From: Agarophyton chilense
Taxonomy: Eukaryota > Rhodophyta > Florideophyceae > Gracilariales > Gracilariaceae
Direction: 5' to 3'
Length of the DNA: 64,000 nt
Assembly: GCA_030374765.1 (NCBI GenBank)
Contig: JARGXX010000007.1
Location: 434,001-498,000 of the forward strand
Part shown: in pieces, positions 40,853 through 60,316 of the stretch
How positions within the stretch are numbered: position 1 is the stretch's first letter
Layout of the letters: each line of letters opens with the position of its first letter
The notes under the pieces: generated by a model
Database searches by the model: none
What the model was told of the DNA's origin: nothing
Seen by the model: only the letters and a program-made list of their open reading frames with translations
Program-made: the position numbers and the translations under genes

Positions 40853-40968
40853 TCAGTCGTCGGGAAGAGTCATATCGTTACAGAATTGTTATGTGACATT
40901 GATGTGACGAGTAGAAGGCACATTGCAGATTTTGCTGAGAGCAAGCGTTGATCCATGTAACCGCAAGA

Positions 40969-41373: not shown

Positions 41374-41483
41374 AGTGGAATTGGTAGGAAACCGGGGAAC
41401 GTGTATTGCGCTGAGGAGGGGCGTGGAGAGAATGTGACAATGTGATGGTTAGTTGTGGAAGGGGTTGCTGTGGCAAATGATTT

Positions 41484-41801: not shown

Positions 41802-41915
41802 CGGTTTTGATACGATGGGCTTAAATCTAGACCTTTAGTTTCTTTCTGTGAATCCGGTCATTCTAAAGTCAACTTCGAGATATGATTCATTGGTGATGGA
41901 CGATTCAGGCTGCCT

Positions 41916-41965
41916 CGCGTCTGTGTTCTCGGAATGATAGATAAGTGTGCTAGATAGCTAGTTTT
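41916..41965 (+). repeat. Inner left terminal inverted repeat
   Basis: CGCGTCTGTGTTCTCGGAAT onward, followed by GTGCTAGATAGCTAGTTTT. It matches the inverse of 60290-60315. Confidence 0.75.
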
Positions 41966-42169
41966 GTAAATAAAAAGGCAAAAAATCTAAGAATTTTGCT
42001 AATTGCGCTAGTTCGGCACCTGAAAAAAAAATTTGGAAATAAGAACTCCATGCATCTTAGTGTTTTGACCACTTAATGCAGTTTAATCTGCATTTGCAGT
42101 TTACTGGTCACTTTTGACCGCTGTAGGTGGAGATCCATACCAAGGCAGTCGTCAGTACCTTCTACCTCC

Positions 42170-42670
42170 TTACTGGCTTTTTTGCTTACTAGGCTCCAGC
42201 GTTCCACCGGGAGGGTATTTGAGGTTGAAGAAGTCCACCACCGCAGTCTCAACCTCGTCCACCTCCCCACTGCTCAAGTTCCTCACACCCGGCTGCCCCA
42301 CCACACACACATTCCCACCCTTCTTCTCCACATCCTTACCAACCCTCCTCTTCTTCAGCCGACTCTCTCCAACTCCTCTCCCTTTCCATTCCTCTCTCCC
42401 CTTCTTCATCCCAGCCGGCTCCCCGCGTCTCCCTGGCGTCACCGGTGATCCTTTCGCTCTCCCTTTCTCCTCTCCCACCTCCTTCAACACCTTCCGCGCA
42501 CCCCAAATCTCCCCCACCCCTTCCATGTGCACTTCCAACACCTTCACACGCCCCTTCAGTTCCTCATTCGCCCTCCACAGCTTCCCCATCTCCAGCCTCA
42601 TGGGGATCCGCTCGACATCGCCAACGCCCGCGAAAGCTATCGACAAGAGCCACCGCAAGCGCAAGCGCAC
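42170..42670 (-). CDS. Basic coiled-coil ORF just inside inner left end
   Basis: A minus frame of about 166 codons with a coiled-coil-like LEMGKLWRANEELKGRVKVL, a Lys/Arg/Gly-rich middle resembling a nuclear protein, and EVETAVVDFFNL near the end. It begins ~250 bp inside the inner terminal repeat and runs towards it. Possibly a DNA-binding accessory protein of the transposon; that role is an inference from position and charge. Confidence 0.4.
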   Translation of the reverse strand: MRLRLRWLLSIAFAGVGDVERIPMRLEMGKLWRANEELKGRVKVLEVHMEGVGEIWGARKVLKEVGEEKGRAKGSPVTPGRRGEPAGMKKGREEWKGRGVGESRLKKRRVGKDVEKKGGNVCVVGQPGVRNLSSGEVDEVETAVVDFFNLKYPPGGTLEPSKQKSQ

Positions 42671-43212
42671 TCACCTTAGTGCGGCCAGTAGTACCCGCAG
42701 CCTCCCACACAGCACCCCCCCTCGAAAATCCTCTCGCCCACCTCCGGCCTTTTATCTCCTTTTTTTGACCCGCTTTTCGCGCGCGCTCGCCCAATTTCAA
42801 TACCATCGTACATCCCTGCATCTACGCTCCGGATGCCCTTCACCCCACTCATTGCTCACTCACACACTCACATCCATATTCCTACACCTTCTATCATGTT
42901 CAGCGCTCCCTCACTACTCACAATTTCATAGCCTTCTCATTTATAATAACTCACACTCATTCGTAACACAAACCGCCGATTACTCATAAGCCCTCTTTCC
43001 CGTTATGACTTCCATAACAACACACACTCCTACACTTTTAACACAAGAAACACCATTCAATATCATAAATCTAACCTCCTTCCCAAAAACCCCTAACACC
43101 CATTTCTCCACAACCATACTCCTTCTCTATTTAATCACATCTCCACACTCGCCACCCCCACCACTTCTTCAATTCCAAGCACATCGCACTCCAAATACCT
43201 TTCGCAATCAAC

Positions 43213-44037
43213 ATGACCGACTCTCTCACTGCCATCCCTTGCACCTCCGACCCAGCCGTTATTGTCGGCAGAGGCCGAATCGGCACTTTGCTTCGCAACA
43301 ACGGCACCCCACAAGATGCTTTTCTCTCAACTCAAGAATTCATCTCCGCGCAATACATCCCCGACCGCCCCATTTTCTTCTGCGGCAGAAATCATTCACT
43401 CTAAGACGTCATTCAAGTCTGCCCTTCCTCCCGCAGAGAGGATCTGGTCTTCCATCAGAACGGAAACATTCTCCCTCTTCTTTCAACCTATGGGCTCCAA
43501 AACTGCACCAAAGCCGTTCTCTTCCTCGCCGTCCCCTCCCTTAACGCACCCCCCGAGGACGGTGTCACCCTCCTCAGTCCCCATGGTCTCACAACTGCCA
43601 CCGGCAAATGGGCTCCCGCACTCGCCAATCGCCTCAGTACCGCAGGCCTCACTTGTCATGTCGTCGACCAGCCCTCCTTCTCTAAAGCTTACTACGAAAA
43701 ACTCGTATGGATATCAGCTTTTAATCTCGTCGGCTCCTCTTATGGCTTTATCACAATGCACGAAGTTGCAGTACAACACCGCACACTCGTTTCAACCATA
43801 ATGAAAGAGCTCCTCGCCATCGTCACATCCGAAACAGGAATCGCCTACAATACAACAGAAACACTCCAAAAACTTCTGGCCCATGGAAAGACACTTACGC
43901 AGTTCCCCACCTCGTTCTCAGACTTTGAGTTCCGGAACGTCTACTTCTACAACGTTTCTAACGCCCAAAAATCCATTGGAAACCGTGACCGCGCCCCTTT
44001 CCATACGAACTTCTTGAACGTCCTCCTCAATGGGTAG
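43213..44037 (+). pseudogene. Ketopantoate-reductase-like Rossmann protein, one in-frame TAA
   Basis: ATG at 43213 opens a frame of about 274 codons. The N-terminus has a Rossmann dinucleotide-binding loop (AVIVGRGRIGTLL). The middle has REDLVFHQNGNI, and the C-terminal helical half has YYEKLVWISAFNLVG, TSETGIAY and FPTSFSDFEFRN. These match a plant/algal NAD(P)-binding family related to ketopantoate reductase (ApbA/PanE fold), which uses NAD(P)H on a 2-oxo acid; the true substrate of the algal family is unknown to me. A TAA at 43402-43404 (after CGRNHSL, before DVIQVCPSSRREDL) interrupts the frame at a variable position, with no frameshift. It looks like host-type cargo inside the transposon. 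The family call is good; whether it still makes protein is unclear. Confidence 0.72.
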
Positions 44038-44170
44038 TACTTCATTCATATAGCCCTTCCAATAAAAACAAGTCCTCCTTTTTAAAGCATATGTCCATCT
44101 CCTTCGCTGCCTCGATAAAGACTGCTATCCGCACGACACCACGTCAGAATATATGAAACGATATTAAGAA

Positions 44171-44797
44171 TTGCTTCGTACATCACAAATCATCACTACA
44201 ACCACTCTTCATAAATCTTCCAACTTTGCAATTAAGTCTGTTTCCAATAACCGCTCCTACAGCCTATCAAAGGTTTTCATTCATAATAATTATTCATACT
44301 CCGCGACAGAGATACGGCAACAACCTAACAACTACTTTGATCACTACATATATATATCCACCGATGACCACCCTACTTCATTGCGCTGAACATACTGTAT
44401 CCAGTCCCTCACAAATCACTTTCTACACAACACTCTCCTCTCCTTCTGAAGCATACAGCGCTACAAAGAACGTCTTTCCCTACCCCCTGGTTCTTCTGTC
44501 CAATGCTCAGCAGCTGTGGATATTCTTCCACAACGAACGGTTATCACCATCGACGAAGTCCTTCAAATCAAACTTCCAACCACCCAGAATGTGGTCGAAG
44601 TCAGAGGGTTCCAGAATCATATCACCAACGAGCTCATGGACGAGATTCCTGACATTTGTACGACCACCAGGAGGCTCCCCACTCGCAACTCCCTACAGCA
44701 GCAAGATACTCTGAAACAACTGTTCAAAGAGCGGTATCATATCGCTACCTACGTGCAGCGTACAAGGAAGACTAGCAAACCGGAACGCCTTTACTAA
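44171..44797 (+). pseudogene. Unknown small gene, interrupted
   Basis: A plus frame whose last part (44450-44797) reads convincingly as protein (TVITIDEVLQIKLPTTQNVV, TRNSLQQQDTLKQLFKERYH). Two in-frame TGA codons (44387 and 44447) lie upstream, again without frameshift. No family recognised. Its stop (44795-44797) is one base before the ATG of the next gene. Confidence 0.35.
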
Positions 44798-44798
44798 G

Positions 44799-45638
44799 AT
44801 GTTCAGTTAGCAAACACTCTTCACATCGACCTTAACGTTCACAATCACACTAACTACACTCTTCGGAGTTATAGACCCAGCTCTGCAATATACGCTTCCA
44901 TTCAGATTCAACTCTCTCCTTCGGTTCATTCTCATAACGCTATTGAGGTGTCCTATCCAAAGCCTGCTACACATTCTCATAATCGAAGGAGACGTACAAT
45001 GTATAAACGCGTTATACGGGTCTCTACAAACTACGCCGTTCAATCCAAACCAGCGATATACCTGGAAGAAACGAGCCTTTCTGGAATTCGGGGCTCTACT
45101 CCTTACTCTACTCATCCCCCTCAACGCCATACTTTTCCTCGTTCACCGCTTCATTCCAGTCAGCGGTACCCTTTCATCAGACGTGAAGACAAATTGTATC
45201 GCCTTCTCCACAGGAGGGGCCGCAGTTGACGCTTTGGCATATCTTCTCCAGCTTGTTTCTATATTCTTCTTTCCAGAGTCCTATCTTAACACAAAGTTCA
45301 CAATGACCCCGGAACCACGGAGAACCACTTTTATGAACCTCGTGCTTGGCGCCCTCTCCCACTCTTTTCAACAGGCTTTATTCATATCCAGTCGGGCTGT
45401 AACCTTCCGACTACTCGGTATGAGGCTGTCGGCATGCACTTTCGCTGCACTCTCTTCAGCCGCCTTCTCCACCTCTCGCATTGAAGGCCCTGGTGTTCCT
45501 ATACTGCTTGGTAACACAGTGGATGTCGTAATCTCGATATCTTCGACAGTTGTCATTCACTATGAGAAAGTGAAAGCAAGTGCTGCTCTCACGCGTTTCA
45601 ATCCAGTTGTTCAGGAGTTTCTACTGAAAGACGACTGA
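44799..45638 (+). pseudogene. Multi-pass membrane protein, early in-frame TAG
   Basis: From ATG 44799 the frame meets a TAG as its fourth codon (44808-44810), then stays open for 275 codons to 45638. No other in-frame ATG occurs before 45303, so either the TAG is a nonsense change or an upstream exon is missing. Four to five hydrophobic segments are visible: LLRFILITLL, ALLLTLLIPLNAILFLV, AVDALAYLLQLVSIFFF, FMNLVLGALSHSFQQALFI and TVDVVISISSTVVIHY. The C-terminus is hydrophilic. No transporter family recognised. It ends 80 bp from the converging 3' end of the ParB/dioxygenase gene. Confidence 0.5.
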
Positions 45639-45719
45639 TCACTATTACAAGAAAAGGGGACTACCCCACATATTACTTCAAATTGTACTCTTTATTGTTC
45701 AATAGGTAACAGATACTAT

Positions 45720-47066
45720 CTAGTCGTCGTCGTCATCCATTATCATACAGCCGTCTTCATAGTCTCCATCTGTGTTAGCCGAGTTGAGACCCATCCCAGG
45801 TTCGTCATCCTCTTCTTCATACTCCTCTTCCCCACTTTCAACAACTTCCATTTTATAATCTTCATCCAACTCCTCATCCTCATCTACCTGGACGTCTTCA
45901 TCATCACCCTTGTTGGAATCATCCTCTTCGAACTTAGGCCGAAATGCTGGTTGCCTATGCACTGCGTCCGGTAGCTTGTACCCATCCGGTACCAAGTACA
46001 TGTGATACCTCATGCGAACTTCCTTAACCAATGCATCCTCGTATCCAGCTCCAGCATGAAACACATCTCCTCGTCCAATAAAAATGGAGTACGGCGGAAT
46101 CCTGAACTTCCTCACTACCATCGTCCGAGACAGCCGCTTCAAGCTCCTGTCGTCGGGCACGTACATGTTATGTGACCTCTCACAAACCCAAAGCATAAAC
46201 GAACTCGCTCCCGACGCCATCATGAAGAACCCTGGAACCTCTCCGACGTTCTTCTCGGCATCGGTCAGTCCTCGAAAGTCCGTATGTAACACCTGCCTTG
46301 GACAGCCCTCCGCCGTACACAGCACTCGCCCCCCTGTTTCAGGGGCATACATCCTCTTCTTCCCCGACCGGTTGTTGCACAACCGAAGAGCGGCCGCAAT
46401 CTGTCCAAACCTCGCATCCAACAATGCCCTTTTCCTCACCATTAAAACGTTGTTCTCGTCCCCCTCCACAGAATCCACAATCCCCACCTTCGTCGTAATG
46501 TACCGCCCAACTCCCTTCATTCTATCTCCAGCGTCTCTCTCCTCACCAGCGTTGATTATAGGGTCCCATCTCTTTCTATTCCCTTCAATCGTCAAGTCCG
46601 GCTGGTTCAAGAAATCCGTCTGGAAGAACTCTAGCAAAGTCCCAGTCACATCCCCATCGAAGTTTACCCCCCTCTTCTTCGCCTCATCCGCCATCCTCTC
46701 GTCCGTGGCAAACTCTTCCAGCACAAAAAATCCTTTCTCCATCAGCTCACTTCTCTTAGTCGCGAAGTACTCGCGGGCCAAGTCATCCCTCTCCATTGCT
46801 GCCATCCATATCGCCTGCTCTTCATTCACAGGGTGGTCCTTCGTCGGTAGAATCACCCCAAGAACCGGTTCTTTCGTGGAACCCAGTTCTTTGTGCCTGT
46901 TATGAGCAGCACGCCAATAAACCGCATGGTGCACACTTTTCAAGTCTTTTACCCTCAAGCACTCCGCCCTGTGCTTGTTCCGTAGGTACATCATCTGCAT
47001 CCAGAGGTGCTGATGCTTCACTCCATTTTCACCCGCCGGCCACTCGCTCGGAAGTGCATTCACCAA
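45720..47066 (-). CDS. 2-oxoglutarate/Fe(II) dioxygenase-like domain with acidic tail
   Basis: The uninterrupted last 448 codons of the preceding frame. The double-stranded beta-helix signature is visible: HTDF (46275-46286), the proximal HxD iron ligands; FHAGAGYE about 78 residues later (46039-46060), the distal His; and RMRYHMYLVP shortly after, whose Arg would bind 2-oxoglutarate. The strand IPPYSIFIGRGDVFHAGAGY is typical of algal and protist 2OG-oxygenase-like proteins. The last ~90 residues are almost all Asp/Glu, as in histone-binding or DNA-mimic tails. Whether it acts on DNA (TET/JBP-like), histones or something else cannot be told. The first codon of this part is TTG after a TAA, so it is probably not an independent gene start. 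Confidence 0.6.
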   Translation of the reverse strand: MVNALPSEWPAGENGVKHQHLWMQMMYLRNKHRAECLRVKDLKSVHHAVYWRAAHNRHKELGSTKEPVLGVILPTKDHPVNEEQAIWMAAMERDDLAREYFATKRSELMEKGFFVLEEFATDERMADEAKKRGVNFDGDVTGTLLEFFQTDFLNQPDLTIEGNRKRWDPIINAGEERDAGDRMKGVGRYITTKVGIVDSVEGDENNVLMVRKRALLDARFGQIAAALRLCNNRSGKKRMYAPETGGRVLCTAEGCPRQVLHTDFRGLTDAEKNVGEVPGFFMMASGASSFMLWVCERSHNMYVPDDRSLKRLSRTMVVRKFRIPPYSIFIGRGDVFHAGAGYEDALVKEVRMRYHMYLVPDGYKLPDAVHRQPAFRPKFEEDDSNKGDDEDVQVDEDEELDEDYKMEVVESGEEEYEEEDDEPGMGLNSANTDGDYEDGCMIMDDDDD

Positions 47067-48278
47067 TTACACCCACGACATACCCGACCCCCCCGCATAC
47101 GGTCCCGCCCTCTTCAGCCCCTTCGGAACACCCTCCGGATTATTGTCTTCGAAGCCACGCATTTGCACACCTTCCTCCTCTTCGTCCCCTACAATTGCGC
47201 CCTGCCCCCCGTCATCATCCAGTTCATCCTCACTCGATGAGAAAACATTGAGTACATGTTCCTTCAAGAAGCGCTTCAGCTCTTTCCTGCTCATCTTCTT
47301 GAACACATCCACCACGTCAGCCGGTATTTGAGCCGGAGATGTGCCCACCGTCTTTCTCCTCTTCCTCTTCCGTTTTAAAGGCTGTTCATACTCGCGTTCA
47401 TCATCACTAATGACCACAGCCTTTCTCTTCCCCTTTCTCTGTCTAGGTTCCATCACCCTCTCACCCGCAGCATCCAGCCCGCGCTCAGTACCTTTTCTAG
47501 TTCGTGTGATGCGTCTGGGAACCACGGTTTCCTGGTGGGGTACGGACTGCCCAGCACTAGACGAAGGAACATTCACAGAAGGTGGCACCTCCACCACATC
47601 CTTCTCCGCACTTGGGGACGCCAGATTCACTTTCAGACCGCCTTCAATCCGCCTTTGTGCAATTTTCATCCTCTTCGACACCAACCCCGGCCACAACCGC
47701 TTCGGACCACTGAGCTCCATCTTCGCTGTTTGCATGCAAAGGTACTCCCTTAAAGACACCTCGTTCTTTCCCATCACAATTGTGCTGTCTAGAACCTTCC
47801 CCGCCGTCAGACCCTTCTCCTTTCCCGCCCTTTCGCATAGCTGGAACATTCCTATGGCGCATTAGAAGAACTGCTTTCGCGTCTCCTGGAAACGTCCCAT
47901 ATTCCCCGTAGAACCCATCCTCACCCTCACATGTAGCTGCAAACAACGGATTGCGAAACGGAATATTTCGTCTTCGAGTCCTAACAACAAGTCACTCGAC
48001 ACATGCGCAAGCGTTAGCACTGGACCCTCCTTGCATACGTTCTCAAAGAACTCCAGGAGACCTTCGCTCCTGACGAATTTCAACCCAAGAGTCTCATAGC
48101 GATTCAAGCGGCGCAAGATGTAGATTCCTATGGCTTCGCTCGTCTTCAGCGCCCCAGCTATCCGTGTCGGAGTAAGGTCAGCCAACTTGGTTCTCTTATC
48201 GTCAATCAAGTTGCAAATGAAGGACACTGTCGAATGAACCTTGTCGGCGAAACTCATCTTCAACAGATTTGAACTCAT

Positions 48279-48500
48279 TTAATTGAGTACATTACCAAGA
48301 CCGAGCACTTCGTTCAGCGATAACGGCTTCCGGTCCTTGCGTCTCCAAAGAAAGACATCAAGAGACCGCACAATTTCCAACCACTTTCTCCCTTCAGAGG
48401 GATCATTCTTCAGATCTCGCAGAACCAAGACGCGGTGATGACCGTCAATGAGTATGACAGGCACCACTACCCTCCCATTGTGAACAATTTCACTGAAATC
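48279..48500 (-). other. ParB/Srx-like domain core
   Basis: DFSEIVHNGRVVVPVILIDG then HHRVLVLRDLK is the classical ParB N-terminal box with the GHHR motif used for phosphate/CTP contacts in the ParB/sulfiredoxin superfamily. It is followed by a helical region. Only the core lies in this uninterrupted stretch. Confidence 0.6.
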
Positions 48501-49406
48501 TTATTCCATCCCCCCGACGATGGCAACAGCAATCGACCCTGCTGACGAAAGCCAGCCAAACGTTTTGCACTTTGCCATCGTCGCCGCCTTGTGTCCTGCA
48601 TTCACACTTCTGACAGTCTTCTCGGAGATTTGTATGTCATCTATGTCCACAATCAAGCGGCACTGGTCATAGTCTGAAACAGAGATCTTCTTTTCCACGA
48701 GCGTCCTATCCACTTCCTGCGAAGGAACGGCATCGCCGTCATCGAACAACTCCAACTCGGGACCGTTGTGCGAATCCCCGCGTACATTCACCGCTGACCC
48801 CATCTCCAAAACATCTTTATCAGAATCATCCACTATCGTCACACTCTTTTTCGGCTTGACGGGTTGCTTCATGGCCGGCGGCACTGTTGTTGGCTGTGCC
48901 CTCTTCCCCCTCAAAGGCGTAGCAGACTCCTTCGAGGGGGTCGCGCTTTTGGCAGTCTCCGGCCGAGGAGGCCCTGGAGTCAGCACAGAGGAGACGCTTG
49001 TCATCATCGAGGTATCTCATGCGTATATATTTGCCGACACCATATCCTTCAGCAACTCCGGCGGCTCCTCTGCTTCCTTGAAGGAGTACGGATACTTGGA
49101 GTTGATCCCCTTTTTAAGTTCAGTCCTCTAGATGGCCACCAAGTCCTCTCCCGGCTTCGCAGACTCGCGCAACGAATGGCCATGCATCGCTCTGCAAAGC
49201 GCCTTCCCGGCCGCTCCACTGCCCCAAACACCTCTCAACTCCGCAGTGCCAACCATAGTACCCTTCTTCTTCCCTGTGCCATCCGCCAGGAACAACGCCA
49301 CCCTATCCCCACCAGCCAGATTGTTTCCCGATGTAGCTTTTCGCGGAGTGGCGCGTGGAGTACCCCGTGGAGTACCCCTCGCTTTCGCTTTGCCTCGAGT
49401 CATCAT

Positions 49407-50313
49407 TTGAATCGGATCGTAGTTGGTCGAGGTTGCAAATGGTCGCAGAGCGCTTTGAGCCTTTTATGGTATACAGACTAAGACGTATTGGATCGAGCTC
49501 CTTTGGTGGCGACTATCCGGAACACTCCCGAGAGCAGTTCGTTGCAATCAGCCTGAATTACGTCCGCTTAGTTTCAACCTGAGCTACGTCCGCTTAGTTT
49601 CAAACTCAAGAAACTCCTTGTCTCTTTCCATCGCAAACACGCCTATTGGCTTGATAGGCGATACAAGAAAATAATATTAAAAAATTAAAAATATCCTGAC
49701 GGCCGACAGAGGTGCGCTCCGACTTCATCGGGACCCCCGATGAAGTCAGAGCGCACCTCTGTCGGCCGTCAGTCGATCAATATCTCAGAAACGCATCGTG
49801 CGTGATGTTATGGCGTATTTGTCGGCCGACAGGGGTGCCCTGCGACTTCATCGGTCCACCGATGAAGTCGCAGCACACCCCTGTCGGCCGACATAATACA
49901 TATAATTTTGGAACGCCCAGGTGTACACGGTGCACTCTGTCGGCCGACAGAGGTGCGCTCCGACTTCATCGGTGGTCTCGATGAAGTCCCCGCGCACCTC
50001 TGTCGGCCGACATAATACATATAATTTTGTAATTTTTAGGACGCCCAGGTGTACACGGTGCATTCTGTCGGCCGACAGAGGTGCGCGGGGACTTCATCGG
50101 GACCCCCGATGAAGTCGGAGCGCACCTCTGACGGCCGACAGAATGCAACCAGGATAGCTGCGAAGTCGTTCCGCAACAACCGTTCTTCCGTGCGCGCTCC
50201 TCAACCGTACTCACAATCTTTCCGTACCCACCCGCACCCACCCGCACCCGCTGCTCTCTTTCACTCAGGCTCTCGTGACGACCGCCCGTGAGGTTGTTTG
50301 AACACGTACATAA
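49407..50313. promoter_or_regulatory. Divergent intergenic region of the two chromatin-modifier genes
   Basis: The 0.9-kb space between the 5' ends of the ParB/dioxygenase gene (minus) and the methyltransferase-SET gene (plus). It must hold both promoters and is filled by the palindrome array at 49696-50146. The frames seen in the array are by-products of the repeats, not genes. No convincing TATA box was picked. Confidence 0.7.
49696..50146. repeat. Array of four long hairpins built on TGTCGGCCGACA
   Basis: Four near-perfect inverted repeats of 74-87 bp: 49696-49772, 49820-49893, 49938-50012 and 50060-50146. Each arm is about 34 bp and starts with the 12-bp palindrome TGTCGGCCGACA (or the one-base variant GACGGCCGACAG). 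Next come a GAGGTGCGC block and GACTTCATCG, then a short loop. So the 12-mer occurs eight times. Hairpins 2-3 and 3-4 are joined by a second repeated unit (ATAATACATATAATTTTG ... ACGCCCAGGTGTACACGGTGCA). Arm sequences differ from one hairpin to the next while partners within a hairpin mostly agree. Confidence 0.93.
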
Positions 50314-51417
50314 ATGGCTCCAGAACCCACGAGAACTTCTTCATCGCCTGCGGCAGACATCTTCGAAATGGGTAAACTGTTTGGTACGGGAGATGAAGTT
50401 ATCAGAGCGTGTCTGGATTTGCGTGATCGTTACGCATCAACGAGGCGGGAGGAAGATGAGCCGCGAAAAGTGGGGCACACTGCATTCATCGATTTCGCAA
50501 TTGCCAATCGCCACATCCTACCGGAGACCGCGAAGTTTTTTTATACTCTCCTAGGTCCCGACCACACCAATTACACAGAAGATGAGCTCCGAGTTGTAGG
50601 AATGAGGGGCTCGAACTGTCAGAATTATTTCTCGGCGAGGTTGCTGGATATAAGGGATGGGGACCCAGATAGGCGCGTGAGGGACTTTTGGAACGCGTAC
50701 GAGGCGGTGGAGTTCAAGGGCATCCCGAAGAATGTCACTTTCACAGAGTTCTTCAAAGGTCTTGATACAACCCGAAAGAAGGCGAGCAAAAGCCGGGCTC
50801 CATTCGCGACCGGCTTTCCGACAATGTTCCAGAGGTTGCTGTTCCCCATTTGTATTCAGTCGGTCTCTATGGAGAAGAGAAGAGTCTCCCGTAAGCGAAG
50901 AAAGCGGGACAGAACCTACGATAGGCCATTTTCGAAGGTGGCGATTTATGACAAACCAGTAGCTCAGCGTGTGGGCTTTGGTGTGCAGCTCGTCAATAAC
51001 GCGTGGGACAGCTTTGCCCAGTATTTGGGATTCCCTGGCGTGGAATTCATGGTTTTGCCCTTTATCCATCTACGATATTCTGATATGCAGTTCCAGGCAA
51101 TCGGAAACAGAAGGGATGGGTTCTCTCACAAGGACATTGCCCAACGACTCCTTCCTTGTAGAAACCGTACTTTATTGGAGGAGGATGTCGTCCCATGGGT
51201 GTGGAACCTGCCGGAGTACGTTGACACTCCACTTCGTATGTTGCTCAAAGAGTTTCTCGCTGACCTGCACAAAGTGGTGGTGCATGAGCAGCTTTACTCT
51301 ATATCAGCTCCGGAAAGATGGGACGTTCTAAAACCATTTACATACACTTTGCCTAGAGTGTTTGCGGAGAGATTCGACTGCTTCTCGAACTCTCTTATCT
51401 CTACCATCTCGGAATAA
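50314..51417 (+). CDS. N-terminal half of methyltransferase-SET gene, unknown domain
   Basis: ATG 50314 (context ACATAAATGGCTC) opens 367 codons ending in TAA 51415-51417. The same frame continues to 53445, so this is likely the N-terminal half of one gene. The protein is well folded in appearance (FIDFAIANRHILPETAKFFYTLL, LVNNAWDSFAQYLGFPGVEF) with a basic patch RRVSRKRRKRDRTYDR. No family was recognised. It could be a DNA-recognition or chromatin-reader module for the enzyme that follows. Confidence 0.6.
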   Translation: MAPEPTRTSSSPAADIFEMGKLFGTGDEVIRACLDLRDRYASTRREEDEPRKVGHTAFIDFAIANRHILPETAKFFYTLLGPDHTNYTEDELRVVGMRGSNCQNYFSARLLDIRDGDPDRRVRDFWNAYEAVEFKGIPKNVTFTEFFKGLDTTRKKASKSRAPFATGFPTMFQRLLFPICIQSVSMEKRRVSRKRRKRDRTYDRPFSKVAIYDKPVAQRVGFGVQLVNNAWDSFAQYLGFPGVEFMVLPFIHLRYSDMQFQAIGNRRDGFSHKDIAQRLLPCRNRTLLEEDVVPWVWNLPEYVDTPLRMLLKEFLADLHKVVVHEQLYSISAPERWDVLKPFTYTLPRVFAERFDCFSNSLISTISE

Positions 51418-51444
51418 ATATCGCCACTAAAGCTGCGAGGGAGT

Positions 51445-53445
51445 GTGGAGGTGGAAGTGGTGGCTGCGACAAAGGCGGAACCTACTATGGTTATGGAAGA
51501 AGACAAGATAGAATTTGTACCCCCTGAGAAAGATTCGGAGGCTCCGGCGGTGGAGGGTGGAGAGGGAGTGGACGGTGGGACCGGGAATGAGAAAGAGAAC
51601 ATGGGTGTTGGTCAGCATTCTTCCACAGCTGGACCAAGGTCGGTCGAATCTGAGTCGGTGGATATTCTGCCGCCTCACGACCTTACCTCTCTGGATGATA
51701 TAATGTCTCTCCAAAAGTGCGAGTCGGAGATGGATAAGCACTGTCGAATGTACAATTGTACTTTCGAGAACCTGGTGGAGATTGACGAGACATTGCGCAG
51801 CAATGGGGTATCTCCGATAGGGAAATTGCAGTTGGTTCTCACGGACCCGCCGTATAATATACGTGCGAAGAAGAACAGGAAAAACAGCTGGTACGACGTT
51901 CTTAACCGGCAAGACATGGTGAAGACGGCGAAGCTCATCTCTAAACTTCTGCGTCTGGGAGGGCATTTCGTTATATTCTGCGCGATTGAGCAGGTGAACG
52001 AATGGAAAGAAGTGTTGGGTCGAATTGGTGCAAAGGATGAGAATGGACAGAAGAGCAGGTCGTTTGTCGTGGACAAGGTCCAGCTGCACTTCATTCGCTC
52101 TCAAGGCAATCCGATGCGTAATCCCGGACGTAGTTCGTGCTCCCTGTTTCCCGGAACAGAGTACGCCATTCATGGAGTTCGCAGCGGGTTATCCTACGCC
52201 GAACAACATGGCATGGTGAACTATGAGAACTTCAGCTTTGTACCATCGCGATATCCGGGTTACCATAGCGTGATTGACCAAGTGCCTCCCATGTCGAATG
52301 GTGAAACACTTCTATGGAGAAGGAAGAATGCCAAAGGAGCAGTTACGTATCAGAAAGTGCGTGCGGAACAGAAGTCACGCGCTTTGCTGAAGGAGCTCAT
52401 CAGCAGGTTTTCTCAGCCGGGAGACATAGTGGTGGACCTCTTCGCCGGAACATTTTCAACGGCCATGGCATGCATGGAACTGAAAAAGCACCGTCAGTTT
52501 CTAGGGTGTGAGCCAGATCCGCAGTGCTTTGCTCATGCGAAGCACGCCACTACAGTGAAATTTGCGTCATGCATGCGGAACAACGAGACGGACATTCATA
52601 TAACGCAAGATGTTCGGAACACTGTGACTCGAGTGACATGCTTGTTTCCGGACGTCGTCATAAAGCGTTCGAAGTCCTGGAAAAGACCTACCGGATTTCT
52701 CGAGCATCAGATGTTTCCACCCCATATCGTGGATTTTCTCTCCTCCATGTGGCAGGAGAAGAATATATCGGAGATTGGGCGACGGCAGGCGCTGTATGAG
52801 TGGCCAAGAAGTTTTCAAGGAAAGATGTCACTGTTGGATTCGAATGCTATTCTGGCAGTGGCGGCGACAGTATGTGGTTGTCGGATTGCAAAGTCGACGA
52901 GAAGGCACCCGAATGCTGGAGTTGGTGTGTACACAACACGCCGGGTGATACAAGGTGAGACTGTTTGTTACTTTTACGGGACTTTGGTGTACCATGAACT
53001 TTCAAAGCGGAAGGAAGTTCATAAGGCAAACGGAGGGGGGCTATTGAAAGCGACTGCTGATCGTTTTAGGCAGTACGCGATGGAGATAAGCGTCCGAGGG
53101 GAAGTGTTTCACAAGCTACCAGGAAGAATTAGTGGGGTGTCTCTTATTCCGGTGTGGATTGTCCCTGCTCCATTTTGCTTGGGGGGAACAATTAACGACC
53201 CCAAGTATGTGGAAGGGGATAGGGACAGGGATGCGGTTGAAGACGGGTTAATGAGACGCCGAACTGCAAATGTTCGGGTTATCAGAACTCCGGGGACGGG
53301 GCGGACCCCATTTCAGTTGAGAGACTATAGATTGCTTTCTGTGCAAGCAATTCGAGATATAGAAATAGGAGAGGAGCTGTTCGCAGATTATGGGACAGAG
53401 TATATCTGGAGTATGAATAACACGCCAGTCATAGTAATCAATTAA
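51445..53445 (+). CDS. DNA amino-methyltransferase fused to SET domain
   Basis: The frame continues from the preceding ORF after one TAA; the first codon here is GTG, so this is probably not a separate start. After an acidic linker comes a DNA methyltransferase: LVLTDPPYNIRAKK (motif IV, DPPY, 51832-51870), FVIFCAIEQV, then KSRALLKELISRFSQPGD and IVVDLFAGTFSTAMACMEL (motif I, 52420-52480). Motif IV before motif I is the beta-class order of bacterial and phage N6-adenine and N4-cytosine methyltransferases. The C-terminal ~190 residues are SET-like: GVGVYTTRRVIQGETVCYFYG, an NDP in place of the usual NHS, and IGEELFADYGTEY at the end. SET enzymes methylate histone lysines. A DNA-base and a histone methyltransferase in one chain is unusual. 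Confidence 0.8.
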   Translation: MEVEVVAATKAEPTMVMEEDKIEFVPPEKDSEAPAVEGGEGVDGGTGNEKENMGVGQHSSTAGPRSVESESVDILPPHDLTSLDDIMSLQKCESEMDKHCRMYNCTFENLVEIDETLRSNGVSPIGKLQLVLTDPPYNIRAKKNRKNSWYDVLNRQDMVKTAKLISKLLRLGGHFVIFCAIEQVNEWKEVLGRIGAKDENGQKSRSFVVDKVQLHFIRSQGNPMRNPGRSSCSLFPGTEYAIHGVRSGLSYAEQHGMVNYENFSFVPSRYPGYHSVIDQVPPMSNGETLLWRRKNAKGAVTYQKVRAEQKSRALLKELISRFSQPGDIVVDLFAGTFSTAMACMELKKHRQFLGCEPDPQCFAHAKHATTVKFASCMRNNETDIHITQDVRNTVTRVTCLFPDVVIKRSKSWKRPTGFLEHQMFPPHIVDFLSSMWQEKNISEIGRRQALYEWPRSFQGKMSLLDSNAILAVAATVCGCRIAKSTRRHPNAGVGVYTTRRVIQGETVCYFYGTLVYHELSKRKEVHKANGGGLLKATADRFRQYAMEISVRGEVFHKLPGRISGVSLIPVWIVPAPFCLGGTINDPKYVEGDRDRDAVEDGLMRRRTANVRVIRTPGTGRTPFQLRDYRLLSVQAIRDIEIGEELFADYGTEYIWSMNNTPVIVIN

Positions 53446-53769
53446 AAGTGCATCGCTTTTGGTACTTTACTTCATTGTAGTGTACCAGATATTGTGGGCT
53501 TTTACTATGTTTGTCGCTACATATAACGTCAAATCGTGACGTAGTACATATGCTAAAGGAAAGTCATGTACACGGGAGGAGAATACTTTTTCAATATCTG
53601 GTGCGTTCGAGCGCATATTTAAAATATCTGAAAAGTTTGGGGGTGTTCTGAGAACACGAAAAGGGTGGAGGTATATTTTTGGAAGCAGAATGTTTCGAAG
53701 CTTCTCTCCCATCCATCGAATTGCAACGTGTGGAAGACCATATCACGATCGCTCTCTCTCTCTTCAACC

Positions 53770-55986
53770 ATGGCTCCGAAGCGCAAATCGAGAAGCGAGA
53801 ACACTAGCGGGCGCGGTACAAAATCACGGCGGCATGGAGGGGATGCGGAGGGCGGAAGGGACAAGGGGCGTAGGCTCCAGGGCGCGAGTGGAGAGAAGGG
53901 AGGCGTGTGCCTGAGAGGTAGATCAAGGCAAGATGGTGGGGAAGGAGAGGCGAGTGGGGGCAAAGGAAAGGCTGATCGCGCAAAGGAGACGGTGACGGAG
54001 GAGAGTGCGGAGCAAATCACGTTGCGTACGGAGCAAATCACGTCGCGTGCGGAGCAAATCACGTCGCTTACCGGAGAGATGGTGCGGAGCGGCGATGGAA
54101 AACGGGATGGCGTGCGAAGCAACCGCACGCGTGTATCTAGAAGTGGATTGCGGGGGAGGCCGAGCAGAGCTCCAGGGAGGACAAGGAGAGGGGATGCATC
54201 CGAGCGGACTCTAAGTGCTGTACTCACGTCTTCAGCTGATGTGGAGCCGGCAAATCCATGCTCTGCACCTGAAGGAGGTGAAGAGATTCCGATTGAGAGG
54301 ACGAAGGGGCGTAAGGAGGGAGAGAGAATGATCGGAGAACGTGGATCCCGCCTCAGATGCGTTGAAGAAGCAGGGGCATCGTTTACGGGTATGAGGGAAG
54401 AGGACGGTGATAATGAGATACAGAAAGGGAGAATAGAGAGTAGCCGTGGTGGGGAGGGTAGAATAGGTGGACCCAGTAGTGGTCTAATCGCGGGCGCAAG
54501 AGTCGTTCGAGAGAGAACAGAAGGAGAGAGTGTTGGAGTTACCGCGCGGGAACAGGCGGAAAGATGGGAGGGGGCGAACTTGGATTACGTGGAAGAAAGG
54601 AGAGAGCGTGCAAGGGAAAGAATGGGGAGTGTTCGAGATACAGGAAGAAGAGCGATAGACGAAAGGGAAAGCAGAGAAGGGCATGTGAGTGAGGGGGGGA
54701 GAAGGGGGTTTGCTGGAGGGAGAACACGTGGTTCAGGGGAGGAAGGCGATGGAAGAGCAGTAGTTCTTTCTCATCAGGGAGAAGATGTCGAGCGTTTGCC
54801 ACCGAGGAGAGGGGTGGGTTTGGGAGTTGAAGGGTTTGAGGTGAACGCAAGGCGAAGGACGCCGGAAGGTATGCGAGTAAGGAGAAACATTGTATTCACA
54901 AGGAATAATGATAACGGGGAGAATGCGAATTTAAATGTGGTGGAGAACGCCGTCCGTATAGTGGAAGATGAAGCAAATGATGATGACATAGGTTTGTTGC
55001 CGCGGTCGATGCTAATTGAGAAGATGAATGTGTTGAAGGGACAAATGGGACGTATGAAGGAAGACAGCTACAGTGTGATGGTGAGTTTGAAAATGACCCA
55101 AACGGAGCTGGATCGGGCGAGGGAGGAAATGAAGCAGCAGAATGTACTGATTGAGAGTTTGAGGGAGGCGTCGAAAGGTAGAATCGCTGGGGAAGGGAGG
55201 GGAGAGGGAGGCGTGACGCGGCCACGAAAGTATGACATTGGAGTGCAGGAATGCTTTTATGGATTTGCACGTCGTGTGTATGATAGGATTCTTCATTATG
55301 CAAAACTGGAGGCATCGGAACTTTGTTTCGACACCAAGAATGTGGGTCGAAGCTGGAAGAATAGAAGTGAGGAGGTTGGGGAGAGTAGGGACGAAAGTAT
55401 GTTTGTGGTGGGAGAGAAGGAAATGGTTCTGCGATGTCCAATTGAGGTTGCATATGAGATGAGACCGTATACGCCATCGACAGAGGGCGGGAGCCATTTG
55501 TTGTTGAAGCACGTGGTAGAGACTGAGTTAATGGGAGAGAAATGGGAGTCGATAAGGGAAGCGGGGAGGAGAGAGGAGTGCGTGGAAAATGTAAGTGCGG
55601 ATAGATGCTTGAGACAGAGGATGAAGCAGACATTGAGCGATGTGGTTGGGGTGCATAAGCGAGCAGCGCGTGATAAGCTGTTTTCCATGCTTGGATATGA
55701 TTTGATCGCGAAACGAGCTAAGGTGACTGAAGGGACGGAGCTTTGGGTGGAGTTGAAGAAGCAGATTGACGAGGCGCAGGAGAAGTTGATGGGGTCGGGG
55801 GAGGATGGGAGAGGTAAGCTGTGTGCGTGGAGAACGAGTGCGATTGAAGATATTACTTATTCTGGATCGAAGGTGTCTGAGAACTTGGAGGACTTTGGTG
55901 AGGCAGATGTGTATTTTCGAAATCAGGTGTCAATGAAAGTGTTGGAGGAGTTTATGGGCTACGCGGTAGAGAGTCACAGAAATTGA
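53770..55986 (+). CDS. Large unknown protein with basic N-terminus and coiled coil
   Basis: ATG 53770 lies in a strong context (TCAACCATGGCTCC) and starts with a basic MAPKRKSR. The first ~360 residues are Gly/Arg/Glu-rich and disordered, with a 21-bp tandem repeat at 54008-54075 giving three copies of EQIT(L/S)R. Then follow a coiled coil (about 55015-55180, LIEKMNVLKGQMGRMKED ... LDRAREEMKQQ) and a well-folded C-terminal part (ECFYGFARRVYDRILHYAKL, DVVGVHKRAARDKLFSML). The frame meets a TGA at 55984-55986 and continues open to 56412. No family recognised. Its place after the methyltransferase-SET gene and before the transposase suggests an element-specific protein. Confidence 0.65.
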   Translation: MAPKRKSRSENTSGRGTKSRRHGGDAEGGRDKGRRLQGASGEKGGVCLRGRSRQDGGEGEASGGKGKADRAKETVTEESAEQITLRTEQITSRAEQITSLTGEMVRSGDGKRDGVRSNRTRVSRSGLRGRPSRAPGRTRRGDASERTLSAVLTSSADVEPANPCSAPEGGEEIPIERTKGRKEGERMIGERGSRLRCVEEAGASFTGMREEDGDNEIQKGRIESSRGGEGRIGGPSSGLIAGARVVRERTEGESVGVTAREQAERWEGANLDYVEERRERARERMGSVRDTGRRAIDERESREGHVSEGGRRGFAGGRTRGSGEEGDGRAVVLSHQGEDVERLPPRRGVGLGVEGFEVNARRRTPEGMRVRRNIVFTRNNDNGENANLNVVENAVRIVEDEANDDDIGLLPRSMLIEKMNVLKGQMGRMKEDSYSVMVSLKMTQTELDRAREEMKQQNVLIESLREASKGRIAGEGRGEGGVTRPRKYDIGVQECFYGFARRVYDRILHYAKLEASELCFDTKNVGRSWKNRSEEVGESRDESMFVVGEKEMVLRCPIEVAYEMRPYTPSTEGGSHLLLKHVVETELMGEKWESIREAGRREECVENVSADRCLRQRMKQTLSDVVGVHKRAARDKLFSMLGYDLIAKRAKVTEGTELWVELKKQIDEAQEKLMGSGEDGRGKLCAWRTSAIEDITYSGSKVSENLEDFGEADVYFRNQVSMKVLEEFMGYAVESHRN

Positions 55987-56412
55987 GAAAGGCAGTATGT
56001 GGATGGGACGGTGCTGCATCTTGCGCAACTTGATGCATGGATTGGATGTGTGGAGACAACGATGGATAGAGACGTTGGGCGGGGAGGCCAAAGGCAACTT
56101 TTGTTCTCGACGCTGTTTGGGAGGTTTCTGCGACTGGCTGTTGAGGACATATTGAGGGTTGCCTGGAACATGGTGAAGGATGAGTATGCTGAGGAGTTTG
56201 AGAATGATGGATTCTGTGGAGGGAATCTTAGAGAGGTGAGTGGGAATAAGGAGAGAATCGCGACGGTTGGGCTATGGATACCGTCGAGAGAGAAAATCTA
56301 TCTGGCGATGAGGGAGGAGTTTTTCATGGAGAATCTCACGAGAAGACTTGGAGCGGTGTTAGATTGCTATATAGCGTCATGTGGACCAGAAGAACCACGG
56401 TCCAAGCGCTGA
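55987..56412 (+). CDS. In-frame continuation of the large unknown protein
   Basis: About 141 more codons in the same frame beyond the TGA at 55984, with the same protein-like texture (DGTVLHLAQLDAWIGCVET, LAVEDILRVAWNMVKDEY). No new start codon is needed, so the TGA is most simply a nonsense change or a read-through site in one gene of about 880 codons. Confidence 0.5.
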   Translation, partial: ERQYVDGTVLHLAQLDAWIGCVETTMDRDVGRGGQRQLLFSTLFGRFLRLAVEDILRVAWNMVKDEYAEEFENDGFCGGNLREVSGNKERIATVGLWIPSREKIYLAMREEFFMENLTRRLGAVLDCYIASCGPEEPRSKR

Positions 56413-56532
56413 GCGTTGGGGAATAGGCAAGGAGTGGGAGAGTGATAAGGTACGGGGGGATAAGGGGGTAAGGAGGTGGAGCAAGATGGGGGTCGGCTAT
56501 GGAAGAAAAGCAGCGGTGACTATTTTGTTGGA

Positions 56533-59500
56533 TCATGTGCCTTGGGAGGTATTATTGTGGGTGCCACCCAGTGGTGGTGTTGTGCCACCAGTGGTGGTGT
56601 TGGAGAAGTAGGGCTGGGCAGTTGGGTCTCGGTAGAATCTGTTGAGGTAAAATCGATGGAAGCGCCAGTGCAATCGAGGGGTGAAGGGGGGTGCGGGGTA
56701 GTTTTGGCGAAGTACATGAACGGGGCCAAGAATGGAAGACGATGGTACGAGGCCGAACCAGGGGGAGACGTTGTCGGAGTTGGAAGTGTTTGAGATAGGA
56801 AGGGGGTGGGCGGTGTGGTTTTGTTCGTCGTCTGTTGCCCATCGGAGGCAGATGCAATTGAGAGAGACATCGACTTGATCCTGGGGTGGAACGAGTTCGA
56901 GGAACTGAACGAAGGCGAACTCGTTATGAGTGGAAGGGGAAGAAGGGGTAGTGAAGCGAAGAAGAGAGTTGAGCTTGCAGACCCAGGCGGTGGAAATGGG
57001 GTTGGAGAAGCTGGAACCGGCAACGAGGATGTGGGAGAACTTTGGGGTTTTAGAGGGACTGAAGGAGGGAGCAGCGAAGATACGTTGAATGAGTGGGAGA
57101 GGGGGATCTTTGACGGCGAGCTCGTTTCGATCGGCGATGTAGTCGTCTAGGGTTGGGGTGAAGCCGCCGACGACGTATGCGGAATTGACGATTGTGAGAC
57201 GGGTTTGGCGGAGAGTGGGGGAGTCCTGGTTGAGAGCTAGTGTTTCGAGTGTGAGTGTGACGAAGGAGGGGAGTGCGAGGGTTCCAATCTGTGAGATGAT
57301 GGCGATAGTGTCTGGGGAGAAGAGCTCCTGAAGGGAAGAGATTGTTGAGTGGGGGTTTGCTCGAAGGAATTTGTGAGCGGTGATGAGATCGGAAAAGGAG
57401 GTGTGCTTGCCATCACGGACGAAACCTGTTTTGCGGGCTTGGAAGGGAGGAGGAGGGGCATGGGAGGATGAGGTGACGGAAGGATCAGCGGAGAGAGAAA
57501 TCCAATTGTTGACGGCATTGGAGCGTTCGATGGCACGGATGGTTTCGTTGTGCGCGGTGGGTCTGCGCTTGGAGGTTCGGGAGTAATGTGCTTTGAAGAG
57601 GGTATGGATTTGTTCGAAGATGCCTGCATCGTTGAAGTGGAGACCCCCAAAGCGTCGAATGTCCTCAACGATGTGATCGAGGAGGTGGAATTTGAGAGTG
57701 CCAAGGTTGGAGGTATGGTATGGACCGAGAACATCGACAGCTCTGTGCTTGAAAGAATGGATTTGGGAGGCGAGTTTGGCAAGACGAGAAGTGGTCCATT
57801 CGGGGACGGAGTTGTAGCACATGGAGGTGAGGAGGAGGTCTGTGTACTTGGAGAAGACGGTTGTGATGGGAGCGGAATTGGCTTCGTCACAGCAGCGGTC
57901 GAAGAAGGCGCCGATGAAGGGGAAGACCATGTCGAGGGCGCGGTAGTCTTTTGCTTCTAGCATGCCGCGGACGCCGTCAGTTGTGAAGAAGCCGTTGAGG
58001 GACTGCCCGCTTTCGGAAGTAGAGAAGTCGATGTGGAGGCCGGTAGCTGGGGAATGATTTTCGATGGCGGTGAGGATGAAGTTGGAGTGCTTGAGGATGG
58101 AGGTGCGGACGGAGTGGAAGGAACGGCGGGAGTTTGTGGAGCTGATGGTGGTGAAGAGGTGTTCTGATCTGAGACGTTCGATGGCGGCGAGCTTGATGAG
58201 TTTGGAAACGCCGAGGTGGAAGTTGTGGAGGGGTTCGAAGTCGAAGATGTTGTATGGGGTGAGGAGGGGGGTGATGTTGAAAAGGGGGTAAGACTCGAAG
58301 AGGGAGGGGTATTTTGCGAGGGAGAGGGAGTGGAGTGCTTGGAGAGCTTGTTCCTTGAAGTTGCGCGAGACTCTTGGCTTGCGGGCGAGGAGAGCTGCTG
58401 CTTCGGAGTCCTTGAGGAGGGAGAAGTGTTTGTTGCGGGCTGCAAGGGTGAGGGGAAGAGATCGAGGGGGATGGGCGTGAGAGTGTTGGTGGAGTTGTGA
58501 GCGAGCGACAGAGCATCTGTGGCAGGGGTGCTGGGGGCGGGTGGCGTGGGAGATGGCGAGAATATTCTTTGCCTCGGGAATGTCTGCGCAGTAGCTGGCG
58601 ATGATGGGGTGGCATTGACGAAGAACGCCGTCTGCGTCGCGGAAGGGGAAACCGGGGAGGGCGGAAGAGATGAGAGTTTGAAGGAGGAGGAGATGGTCTG
58701 CTGTATGAGTTCCATTTTTGTTTGGCGGGGGATGGAGGAGGAATGAGTGATGATATCTGCATCTGGAGAAGGAGTGATTGGGGTGAAGGAGGTGGGAAGA
58801 TAGCCGAGGAGTGTGAGATTGTCGGAGATGCATTTGCGGCGAAAGGAGTCGGAGAAGTTGAGAAGGGTGATGTGGAGGGGGTAGGAGGTGATGGAAGAAG
58901 ATTTGAGAGAAGTAGAGGACTTGTCGGAGTAGATTTGGACGAGGCCGATGAAGGAGTCGATACCGGTGGAGTGAGGGAGATGCCAGACGATGTTATCTTT
59001 TGTGGACTGCATGATGGCGGTCTTGAGTGCGGGGACGACTTTTGAGCCGAGGGTGGCTGCCATGGGGTGTGGGAAGGCGGGGGAGCCGGAGGCGGATGTT
59101 TGGGAGATGGGGTGGAAAAAGGTGTTCTTGAAGTGTGCGAGGGCGAGCTGTTGTTTGAGGACATGGATTGCGTCTTTCTGGAAGAGGGTTGCGGAGAAGC
59201 GTTTGTGGGGATCGAAGATGGTGGAGGGGGCGAAACCAATGGACCTGATTCTCTGGTGGAAGAGGTCTGCCTGGAGCTCGAGGCATTGCTTTGCGGAGGA
59301 GACTGAGATCCGGAATGTTGATTCGGAGAAGTGGGGATCATTAAGGAGAGTGATGAGTTCGTCAGTCTTTCGTTGTCCAAGCTTGGAGGCGATGGAGGAG
59401 ATGTAGAGGACCATTTTCTCCAGGTGGGGGTTGTCGAGGGGGGGGAGTGGAAGGAGGGAGGGGGGAGAGAGCGAGAGAGGAGGGGGAACCGAGAGGGGCA

Positions 59501-59921
59501 GTGGCGACGTGGATGGCGTCCTGGGTGTGGAGGGAGAGAGAGAGCTGGTCTTGGAGCTAGGAGTCATGTTGTGCGAGAGGGACGTTGTCGGAAGGGCGAT
59601 GTGAGGGAGGAGGATGAGGGGGGAGTTGTGAGGTGGACTTGTGGCGTTATGTGCGGGGGGGGAAGTTGGGTTCATTTCCGCCAGTGGAGAGGAAGCGCTT
59701 GTTGGCGGAGAGGCGATGAGGGCACCTTCTCTGGTGCCGCTGGAGGGCGGGGATTTCTCGGGGGAAGAAGGAGCAACCGTTGAAGCAGCAGGAAGGCATG
59801 GTGGGTGGAGGAGAGGTGGTGGGAAAGAAGTTGGTAGGGGGCGTAGACGGAGAGAGAGTATGGCGCACACAGGGCACGTGACAGGGGAGGGCGGTGGAGA
59901 ATAATGTAGAATGCAAGGCAC
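56533..59921 (-). pseudogene. CMC/KDZ-like (Plavaka-like) DDE transposase, one frameshift
   Basis: Minus strand, start about 59921 (MPCILHYS). A Pro/Ser-rich N-terminus with CxxC-type spacing (PVTCPVCAI) is followed by LEKMVLYISSIASKLGQRKTD and FGLVQIYSDKSSTSL-type sequence (58,92x), where the Asp fits the first catalytic residue. Then come YPLHITLLNFSDSFRRK and LGYLPT. At about 58.69-58.75 kb the coding moves to another frame: GFPFRDADGVLRQCHPIIASYCADIPE, HPCHRCSV (about 58.51 kb), IFDFEPLHNFHLGVSKLIK (about 58.21 kb) and GTLKFHLLDHIVEDIRRFGG (about 57.67 kb). These landmarks match Plavaka-type transposases of the CMC/KDZ assemblage (CXXC region, LH-x-H-x-G helix, KFH...D-x-R-x-F-G). The single frameshift means this copy cannot move itself. 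It sits next to the right terminal repeat. Confidence 0.72.
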
Positions 59922-60117
59922 GTGAGGTCTGCCAGGTCGGGCTGCGATTCTATTGCGATTGATATGGATGGTACTAAATGTTCAATTTCTATTTTGAGGT
60001 CCATTTTGGGGCCGGTTGTTTGTACTAATCTGTCAATCTAGAGCGCACAAAGATTGAATCTGCTCCTGCACCACTTCTCTACTTTTACCTTTAAACTGCG
60101 GCGACAGAAAGATTCAC

Positions 60118-60316
60118 GCTAGTTTTACCTCCATCAGAACTAGAAAAACTGCAGATATGTGCTAGTTTTCCTTCCCATACAAACTAGCACTAATGAACGA
60201 ATGAAAATATTTTCGGAAATTAACAACTCCAAATTTGGATAAATTCACGGGTTTTTCGGTCATTTCAATTCGTCCTTTTCTGACCACTGAACTAGCATTC
60301 CGAGAACACTGACGCG
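60118..60316 (-). repeat. Right terminal inverted repeat and subterminal motifs
   Basis: Inverted GTGTTCTCGGAATGCTAGTT at about 60291-60311, with GCTAGTTTT/AACTAGC motifs at about 60118, 60137, 60158 and 60181. These are spaced copies of the same heptamer in both orientations, as expected for transposase-binding sites. Confidence 0.7.

Follow-up and report, generated by a model that had tools for sequence, protein, structure and literature searches.

DNA transposons that carry TET/JBP dioxygenase genes, Plavaka elements included, and others that carry SET genes have been published (Kojima, 2025; PMC12730594), and Plavaka-flanked giant repeats are known from Amoebidium (PMC11244446). Here, we describe a Plavaka-type DNA transposon in a 64 kb stretch of the red alga Agarophyton chilense (the window; C7:434001-498000 of a genome of 79.8 Mb in 135 contigs, C-numbers denoting contigs of this assembly). 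The element belongs to a mobile family and carries two divergent genes, one for a DNA methyltransferase-SET fusion and one for a fusion of a ParB-like with a 2-oxoglutarate (2OG) dioxygenase-like part (ParB-2OG protein), with an array of palindromes between them. Several shortened copies keep the array, and a diverged second family has the same layout.

With the TET/JBP Plavaka elements, the transposon shares the Plavaka transposase, a 2-bp target duplication and a presumed DNA-acting dioxygenase. However, its ends are CGTC..GACG instead of TGT..ACA (PlavakaA) or CATCA..TGATG (PlavakaB), its dioxygenase-like protein is without a Tet_JBP Pfam match, and a methyltransferase-SET fusion and a ParB-like part are added (PMC12730594). 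The element is at most a further Plavaka lineage, neither PlavakaA nor PlavakaB. Transposon-borne SET domains are also found in HarbingerS and MuDR elements of oomycetes, but the SET domain here is fused to a DNA methyltransferase, and none is mentioned for those genes in the part of the account used (PMC12730594). The brown-algal Sola-1 protein likewise brings prokaryote-type ParB-like and DNA methyltransferase modules into a large eukaryotic DNA transposon, and its authors propose that it binds and epigenetically marks the transposon’s own sequence (PMC12477816). In that case one protein holds both modules, whereas here they are divided between two divergent genes, with 2OG-like and SET partners, in a Plavaka element and with an array between the genes; ParB-like part and methyltransferase thus do not form a single-protein accessory. 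The bdelloid N4CMT is, similarly, a bacterial beta-class N6_N4 methyltransferase fused to a chromatin module in a eukaryote, but it is encoded by a host gene and combines an SPPY motif (N4-methylcytosine) with a chromodomain, in contrast to DPPY and SET (PMC8885841). Phage-type fusions (74 viral loci) have ParB_N and N6_N4 methyltransferase domains as well, though both in one protein; an example is P0049, the weakest of 49 relatives of the methyltransferase-SET protein, which has no SET domain. Finally, plant Vandal (MuDR) elements code for a protein that regulates their silencing in a sequence-specific manner (PMC12730594). The likeness to our element, an element-coded and sequence-specific counter to silencing, is one of analogy only. 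We take the Vandal regulator to be the protein VANC. In the open-access literature, Repbase and subscription papers lying outside the scope of the search, we found neither a methyltransferase-SET fusion nor a ParB-2OG fusion nor their pairing in transposons.

Ends, copies and mobility of the element

The initial annotation, made from the sequence letters, had placed a large transposon at 41916-60315. An element is present there, but its exact ends lie two and one bases further inward, at 41918 and 60314 (Table 1). The inverted ends and subterminal GCTAGTT motifs described for it were both found again: the ends measure 32 nt at 88% complementarity, and GCTAGTT/AACTAGC occurs six times in the two 300-bp ends, compared with 0.07 times on average when these ends are shuffled, and seven times in total in the 64 kb window.

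As the initial annotation had proposed, other copies with the same ends were looked for in the genome. At least 40 scored places were obtained for the left end (120 candidates) and at least 40 for the right end (118 candidates). The methyltransferase-SET protein has 62 genome places with identities of 79-100%; in 11, the frame of 1043 codons is complete and free of stops. The Plavaka transposase has at least 55 places. An exact 2-bp target duplication was detected in 14 of 15 independent paired ends (CG, AG, CA, TT, AG, AA, TA, TT, CG, AT, AT, TT, TT and TA). Duplications of 2 bp (or 3 bp) are a feature of Plavaka elements (CMCT clade). The pair without a duplication, C2:1231604-1246890, was retained in the count; C12:654623-673556, which shares its flanks with C2:40670-59136, was counted together with the latter as one insertion; and six one-sided or unread ends (e.g., C25:587639, C12:164906, C1:1830591) were left unpaired, outside the 15. 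Paired copies span 3.0-18.9 kb. A pre-insertion site is supported by flank comparison at C2:1067377-1080405, a copy nested within an older relative, at the right end of the latter: after removal of this copy and one AA, the joined flanks could be aligned through the junction to the right ends in 20 out of 20 copies tested (73-82% identity; shorter side of 22-28 bases).

An uninterrupted copy, C10:918487-937296, was used unaltered as reference, its left end being read by eye. The copies on C10 and C117 differ at 3 of 9,384 compared coding bases (C10 reference against L024, L033 and L046) and have different right flanks; this near-identity at different sites therefore points to recent transposition. 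The inverted ends, the duplication, the multiple copies and the empty site together support a large DNA transposon that carries the modifier genes, and the family can be classed as Plavaka DNA transposons of autonomous type, which generate 2-bp target duplications and were mobile until recently. In the copies, the modifier genes lie between the ends and not outside the repeats, the position that had been named as speaking against the proposal. A chance landing of these genes between two unrelated transposon ends, which a third end of this kind at window position 39095 might suggest, has a practically negligible probability, as ends, genes and gene order repeat across the genome with duplications.

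That third end-like sequence (39095-39127) is 88% complementary to the right end. Because a BLAST comparison of 39001-41917 with the C10 stretch revealed no similarity, it is not considered part of the window element; it is probably the end of a related but different family. Several copies share their outer flanks, namely C2:40670-59136 with C12:654623-673556, C10:937296 with C75:10123, C3:1603382 with C4:6578, and C70:98310 with C86:1413547. These pairs are probably duplicated chromosome segments, several of them close to contig ends.

The transposase of the C10 copy matches PF18759 (Plavaka) with an E-value of 1.4e-22 and 80.8 bits (cut-off 26.3). Of the earlier description as CMC/KDZ-like, the CMC type therefore holds, whereas a KDZ transposase was rejected, since the Pfam match is to Plavaka only. 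The Plavaka motifs C(2)C and H(3-4)H between the catalytic residues were seen by eye only, and a search of the Protein Data Bank (PDB) with the transposase gave no usable match. In C10, the gene order is A (+), B (+), ParB-2OG (-), methyltransferase-SET (+), E (+), transposase (-). Genes A and B look dispensable, as one or both were cut away in copies that retain the methyltransferase (e.g., L053, L064, L070). The window copy is degenerate, with a stop in the methyltransferase-SET gene and broken frames for the ParB-2OG protein and the transposase.

Table 1. Features of the window copy; positions count from the first base of the 64 kb window.
Feature	Position	Strand	Remarks
Target-site duplication CG, left	41916..41917	.	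end-pair comparison
Plavaka-type DNA transposon, window copy, 18,397 bp	41918..60314	.	borders from matches of other copies
Left terminal inverted repeat, begins CGTC	41918..41947	+	
Left subterminal GCTAGTT motifs (at 41957, 42007)	41957..42013	+	motif count compared with shuffles
Gene A, Rossmann/ketopantoate-reductase-like by eye only	43405..44037	+	absent from several copies; no Pfam match at E ≤ 0.05
Gene B, hydrophobic	44811..45638	+	no Pfam match at E ≤ 0.05
ParB-like + 2OG-dioxygenase-like fusion	45720..49407	-	interrupted in window; 1247-codon frame in C10; start placed by eye from C10 frame
Palindrome array, cores TGTCGGCCGACA	49696..50160	.	divergent intergenic region; 5 intact cores in window, 9 in C10
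Beta-class DNA methyltransferase (DPPY)-SET fusion	50314..53445	+	in-frame stop at 51415-51417 in window copy; 1043 codons in 11 copies
Gene E, basic N-terminus	53632..56412	+	no Pfam match for the part tested
Plavaka transposase, interrupted in window copy	56533..59981	-	Pfam match in C10 copy
Right subterminal GCTAGTT/AACTAGC motifs (at 60118, 60161, 60182, 60290)	60118..60296	.	motif count compared with shuffles
Right terminal inverted repeat, finishes GACG	60285..60314	-	
Target-site duplication CG, right	60315..60316	.	end-pair comparison

The window is rich in transposons. Outside the element, sequences named by eye as Copia-like (3822-8417, 1532-codon open frame), Gypsy-like (11572-18682, chromodomain-like end) and Tc1/mariner-like (32565-33755) were observed. 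Elsewhere in the genome, an EF1A-like gene at C2:348100-349700 (L177) is, judging from a motif, presumably the EF-like protein EFL. Such a gene and telomere repeats of the T(3-4)AG(3-4) type are compatible with a number of groups among algae, other protists and early fungi.

The divergent modifier genes and their palindrome array

Profile matches confirmed the DNA methyltransferase-SET fusion of the initial annotation. In the C10 copy, the methyltransferase half matches PF01555 (E = 3.4e-18) and the SET half PF00856 (E = 8.2e-5; 23.4 bits, cut-off 22.4). The DPPY motif precedes the DxFxG motif for S-adenosylmethionine, the order expected of beta-class adenine enzymes, and the closest PDB chains are the adenine enzymes DpnA and CcrM. 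We infer a methyltransferase of adenine type, with base specificity and activity being predicted from sequence. For the SET half, a weak PDB profile match to SETD8/KMT5A was obtained. Among the 49 related proteins found, 16 have a precomputed SET domain, and SET was detected in all five relatives scanned at E ≤ 0.01, in one of them under the cut-off. An alignment of 38 methyltransferase-SET sequences (36 of the 49 relatives and two loci, several partial) has a consensus that retains the motifs of both halves. The best PHROG is family 67, a phage DNA methyltransferase, and viral contigs contain ParB-methyltransferase fusions, so a phage or bacterial origin of the methyltransferase is plausible. 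The 64 methyltransferase relatives found in viral contigs have at most 29% identity across the methyltransferase domain and higher values only in short segments. Further, lower-scoring N6_N4 methyltransferase places exist outside both families (C21:491047, C4:1099193, C88:1593552, C73:257595 and more), which suggests additional families.

The ParB/2OG-dioxygenase fusion of the initial annotation stands as one reading frame, a single 1247-codon open frame in C10, while its domain names rest on conserved motifs and not on a family match. A profile search for more ParB-2OG relatives yielded none, 94 pattern matches in viral contigs included no confirmed relative, and a comparison of the 2OG part via AlkB gave no viral loci. 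The relatives P0002 (methyltransferase-SET) and P0050 (ParB-2OG, 51%) share the same size of longest contig, 20,528 bases, with four contigs each, from which we infer that the two genes lie together in another organism. The pooled ratio of non-synonymous to synonymous divergence (dN/dS; for each gene, the ten top places and the C10 reference, itself one of the ten) is 0.77 for methyltransferase-SET, 0.43 for ParB-2OG and 0.60 for the transposase, consistent with selection on the element genes but weakly measured.

To what the oxygenase might be directed can be narrowed to some degree. No match to the C5-methyltransferase profile PF00145 was found in the genome, with 10 of 14 controls matching; the controls are prokaryotic, and an intron-split gene may escape. 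Transitions per kb amount to 6.2 in CpG compared with 5.4 in CpC, 4.5 in CpT and 2.7 in CpA. PF12851 and PF05063 had no match in the genome either, but likewise none in the controls, and are uninformative. With no C5-methyltransferase found and only a slight rise in CpG transitions, action of the oxygenase on 5-methylcytosine is less likely; an eraser of this base after the TET model was rejected as first choice on these grounds, with PF00145 contributing weak evidence. The oxygenase would more likely act on the element’s own adenine methylation, or on protein.

In the window copy and the C10 stretch, TGTCGGCCGACA cores occur only in the interval that separates the two divergent modifier genes. 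For a 21-base version of this site, the genome has 661 matches with up to two mismatches, and the reversed pattern has none. The first 100 listed sites (C1-C27) form 35 clusters; 16 of these have a methyltransferase gene at most 5 kb away, and 19 have none within that distance. Two methyltransferase places (C3:1594554, C3:1632658) with no listed site near them were left out of this cluster count. Of the family-A methyltransferase places, 16 of the 18, i.e., those of the family described so far, on these contigs have a listed array. The shortened copies C16:982452-986708, C79:753753-757947 and C25:1014693-1017734 have both ends, a duplication and the array near the left end, and the listed places include no modifier gene in them. 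Seven left-end loci have the array nearby; the same junction was found in six of them (C10 position ~919171 joined to the array), and C96:300194 has another (918765 joined to the array); both aligned deletion junctions retain the array. One of the 20 left-end loci, L063, was placed by a separate comparison and not by automatic classification. Array spacings on C4, C17 and C22 suggest further deletion junctions.

A second family and the contig ends

A second family (family B) was detected in four places by its methyltransferase-SET protein, which has 44-45% identity to that of family A, together with a recurrent ParB-2OG relative (53-54%). On C92, the pair is again divergent, with frames of 1130 and 1316 codons, separated by an interval in which a 16-bp palindrome, ATTGCCTGCAGGCAAT, occurs twice, in inverted arms of 57 nt. 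This palindrome is unrelated to those of family A but occupies the same position. A 30-base form of the site has 182 genome matches with up to three mismatches, and none for the reversed pattern. The 100 sites listed are largely tandem, with a period of ~773 bp, and ParB-2OG genes are found inside the array on C9, C31, C32, C63 and C76. The ~773-bp satellite with the 16-bp palindrome extends, for instance, over C31:718459-754384, C63:17999-32809 and C32:599-33280, and several such stretches reach the contig end.

Matches to PF01555 revealed 26 family-B-like places, the identity comparison covering four of them. No fewer than 22 lie within 25 kb of a contig end, one is 57 kb inside, and three are on contigs lacking a size figure. 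Reading 20 contig-end stretches, we found telomere repeats of the T(3-4)AG(3-4) type at three (C95 start, C68 start, C22 end) and degenerate ones at the C95 end, while three stretches finish inside the array (C31, C4, C16; C98 likewise). Family B genes are located 4-15 kb inward at the start of C95, and two palindromes occur ~6 kb inward at the end of C22. The gene that follows methyltransferase-SET on C95 (C95:15928-16998, L178:929-1999) has an OrsD zinc-finger domain. It shows no significant resemblance to gene E, and none to Plavaka was found within 2 kb; therefore, elements of more than one type may carry the divergent pair.

Proposed self-marking and its alternatives

We consider it somewhat probable that the element marks itself by means of a divergent epigenetic cassette, addressed by the palindrome array, which would hold the element’s DNA in a permissive state. 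The cassette would comprise an adenine-type methyltransferase-SET writer and the ParB-like/2OG-like protein, with the array serving as its address. Binding of the array by the putative ParB-like part would regulate both divergent genes and bring writer and oxygenase to array-bearing DNA, where the writer is predicted to add methyl groups to adenine and histones, and the oxygenase to trim or alter one of those marks. In this way the element’s own DNA would be marked, including shortened copies with ends and array, and would be kept accessible to both expression and transposition. The same gene order in family B, with palindromes of its own, supports this explanation.

A number of observations weigh against self-marking. 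The ParB-2OG protein has no Pfam match to a ParB or 2OG domain even at E ≤ 10, and no usable match in PDB. The only conserved signature of its 2OG-like part is an HxD...H...R triad (H1107xD1109...H1183...R1199, invariant in four of four proteins). A search with Tet_JBP (PF12851) at E ≤ 10 gave no match in family B, P0050, P0051 or the window piece, though very divergent PE-type TET/JBP proteins, which have been described (PMC12730594), could escape it. For the ParB-like part, a direct search of the protein with the ParB hidden Markov model stayed under the threshold. The best profile-profile comparison (four segments against 81 phage-contig ParB sequences) reached P = 0.0043 at a probability of 8%, aligning a VDG.HR stretch on the ParB G.RR stretch; the other three segments had P values of 0.18-0.71. 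The dN/dS of methyltransferase-SET is weakly constrained at very little synonymous divergence (0.0076). Moreover, only part of the 19 methyltransferase-free clusters was confirmed to lie between two ends, and an 8.07-kb copy with intact duplication, C3:949868-957937, lost its array. Since palindromes are unstable, a fair alternative for the two aligned junctions is that deletions begin there without any selection.

In its widest form, this alternative makes the array a mere shared divergent promoter with deletion-prone palindromes, the ParB and 2OG readings being wrong or irrelevant and the enzymes acting diffusely over the genome. Inverted repeats of up to 102 nt in the array region, the single junction in six of seven shortened copies and the ParB and 2OG parts without family matches would fit such a promoter. 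Nevertheless, we hold it to be unlikely, as the second junction also retains the array, the corresponding position in family B is occupied by unrelated palindromes, and a ParB-like and methyltransferase accessory protein has been reported in a brown-algal transposon (PMC12477816). Similarly improbable is a cassette that imposes repression, by which the element would silence its own copies and so limit copy number and host damage. The bdelloid N4CMT marks transposons and is tied to silencing (PMC8885841), and many copies of our element carry stops; however, 62 gene places and many arrays without a methyltransferase would make for a weak brake, and shortened copies that retain the array would have little benefit from one. 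Some TET/JBP enzymes hypermodify bases (PMC12730594), and the ParB-2OG protein might accordingly build on the methyl mark, giving an oxidised or altered base that labels the element. This is still less likely in our view, as no further modifying gene, e.g., a glycosyltransferase, was recognised among the element proteins scanned.

A wider proposal can also be made, which we put forward as speculative and consider doubtful at present. The system may be a eukaryotic counterpart of ParB-parS, in which each family has its own array and a ParB-like protein fused to an oxygenase, paired with a double adenine/histone writer, so that array-bearing DNA would be recognised as self and receive a private chromatin state. 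The family B pair would then have become, or would live in, the ~773-bp palindrome satellite, found mostly near contig ends and with telomere repeats close by at two ends checked, as a self-marking chromosome-end domain.

Transposons with a single epigenetic enzyme are well known. The element described here appears to hold a complete circuit, made up of a double DNA/histone writer, a probable oxygenase joined to what is probably a DNA-binding part, and candidate target sites differing between two diverged families. How a transposon tells its own DNA from that of its host when manipulating silencing is a long-standing question that thereby becomes directly testable from native-DNA reads. The relative at contig ends, finally, raises the possibility that such circuits may seed chromosome-end chromatin.

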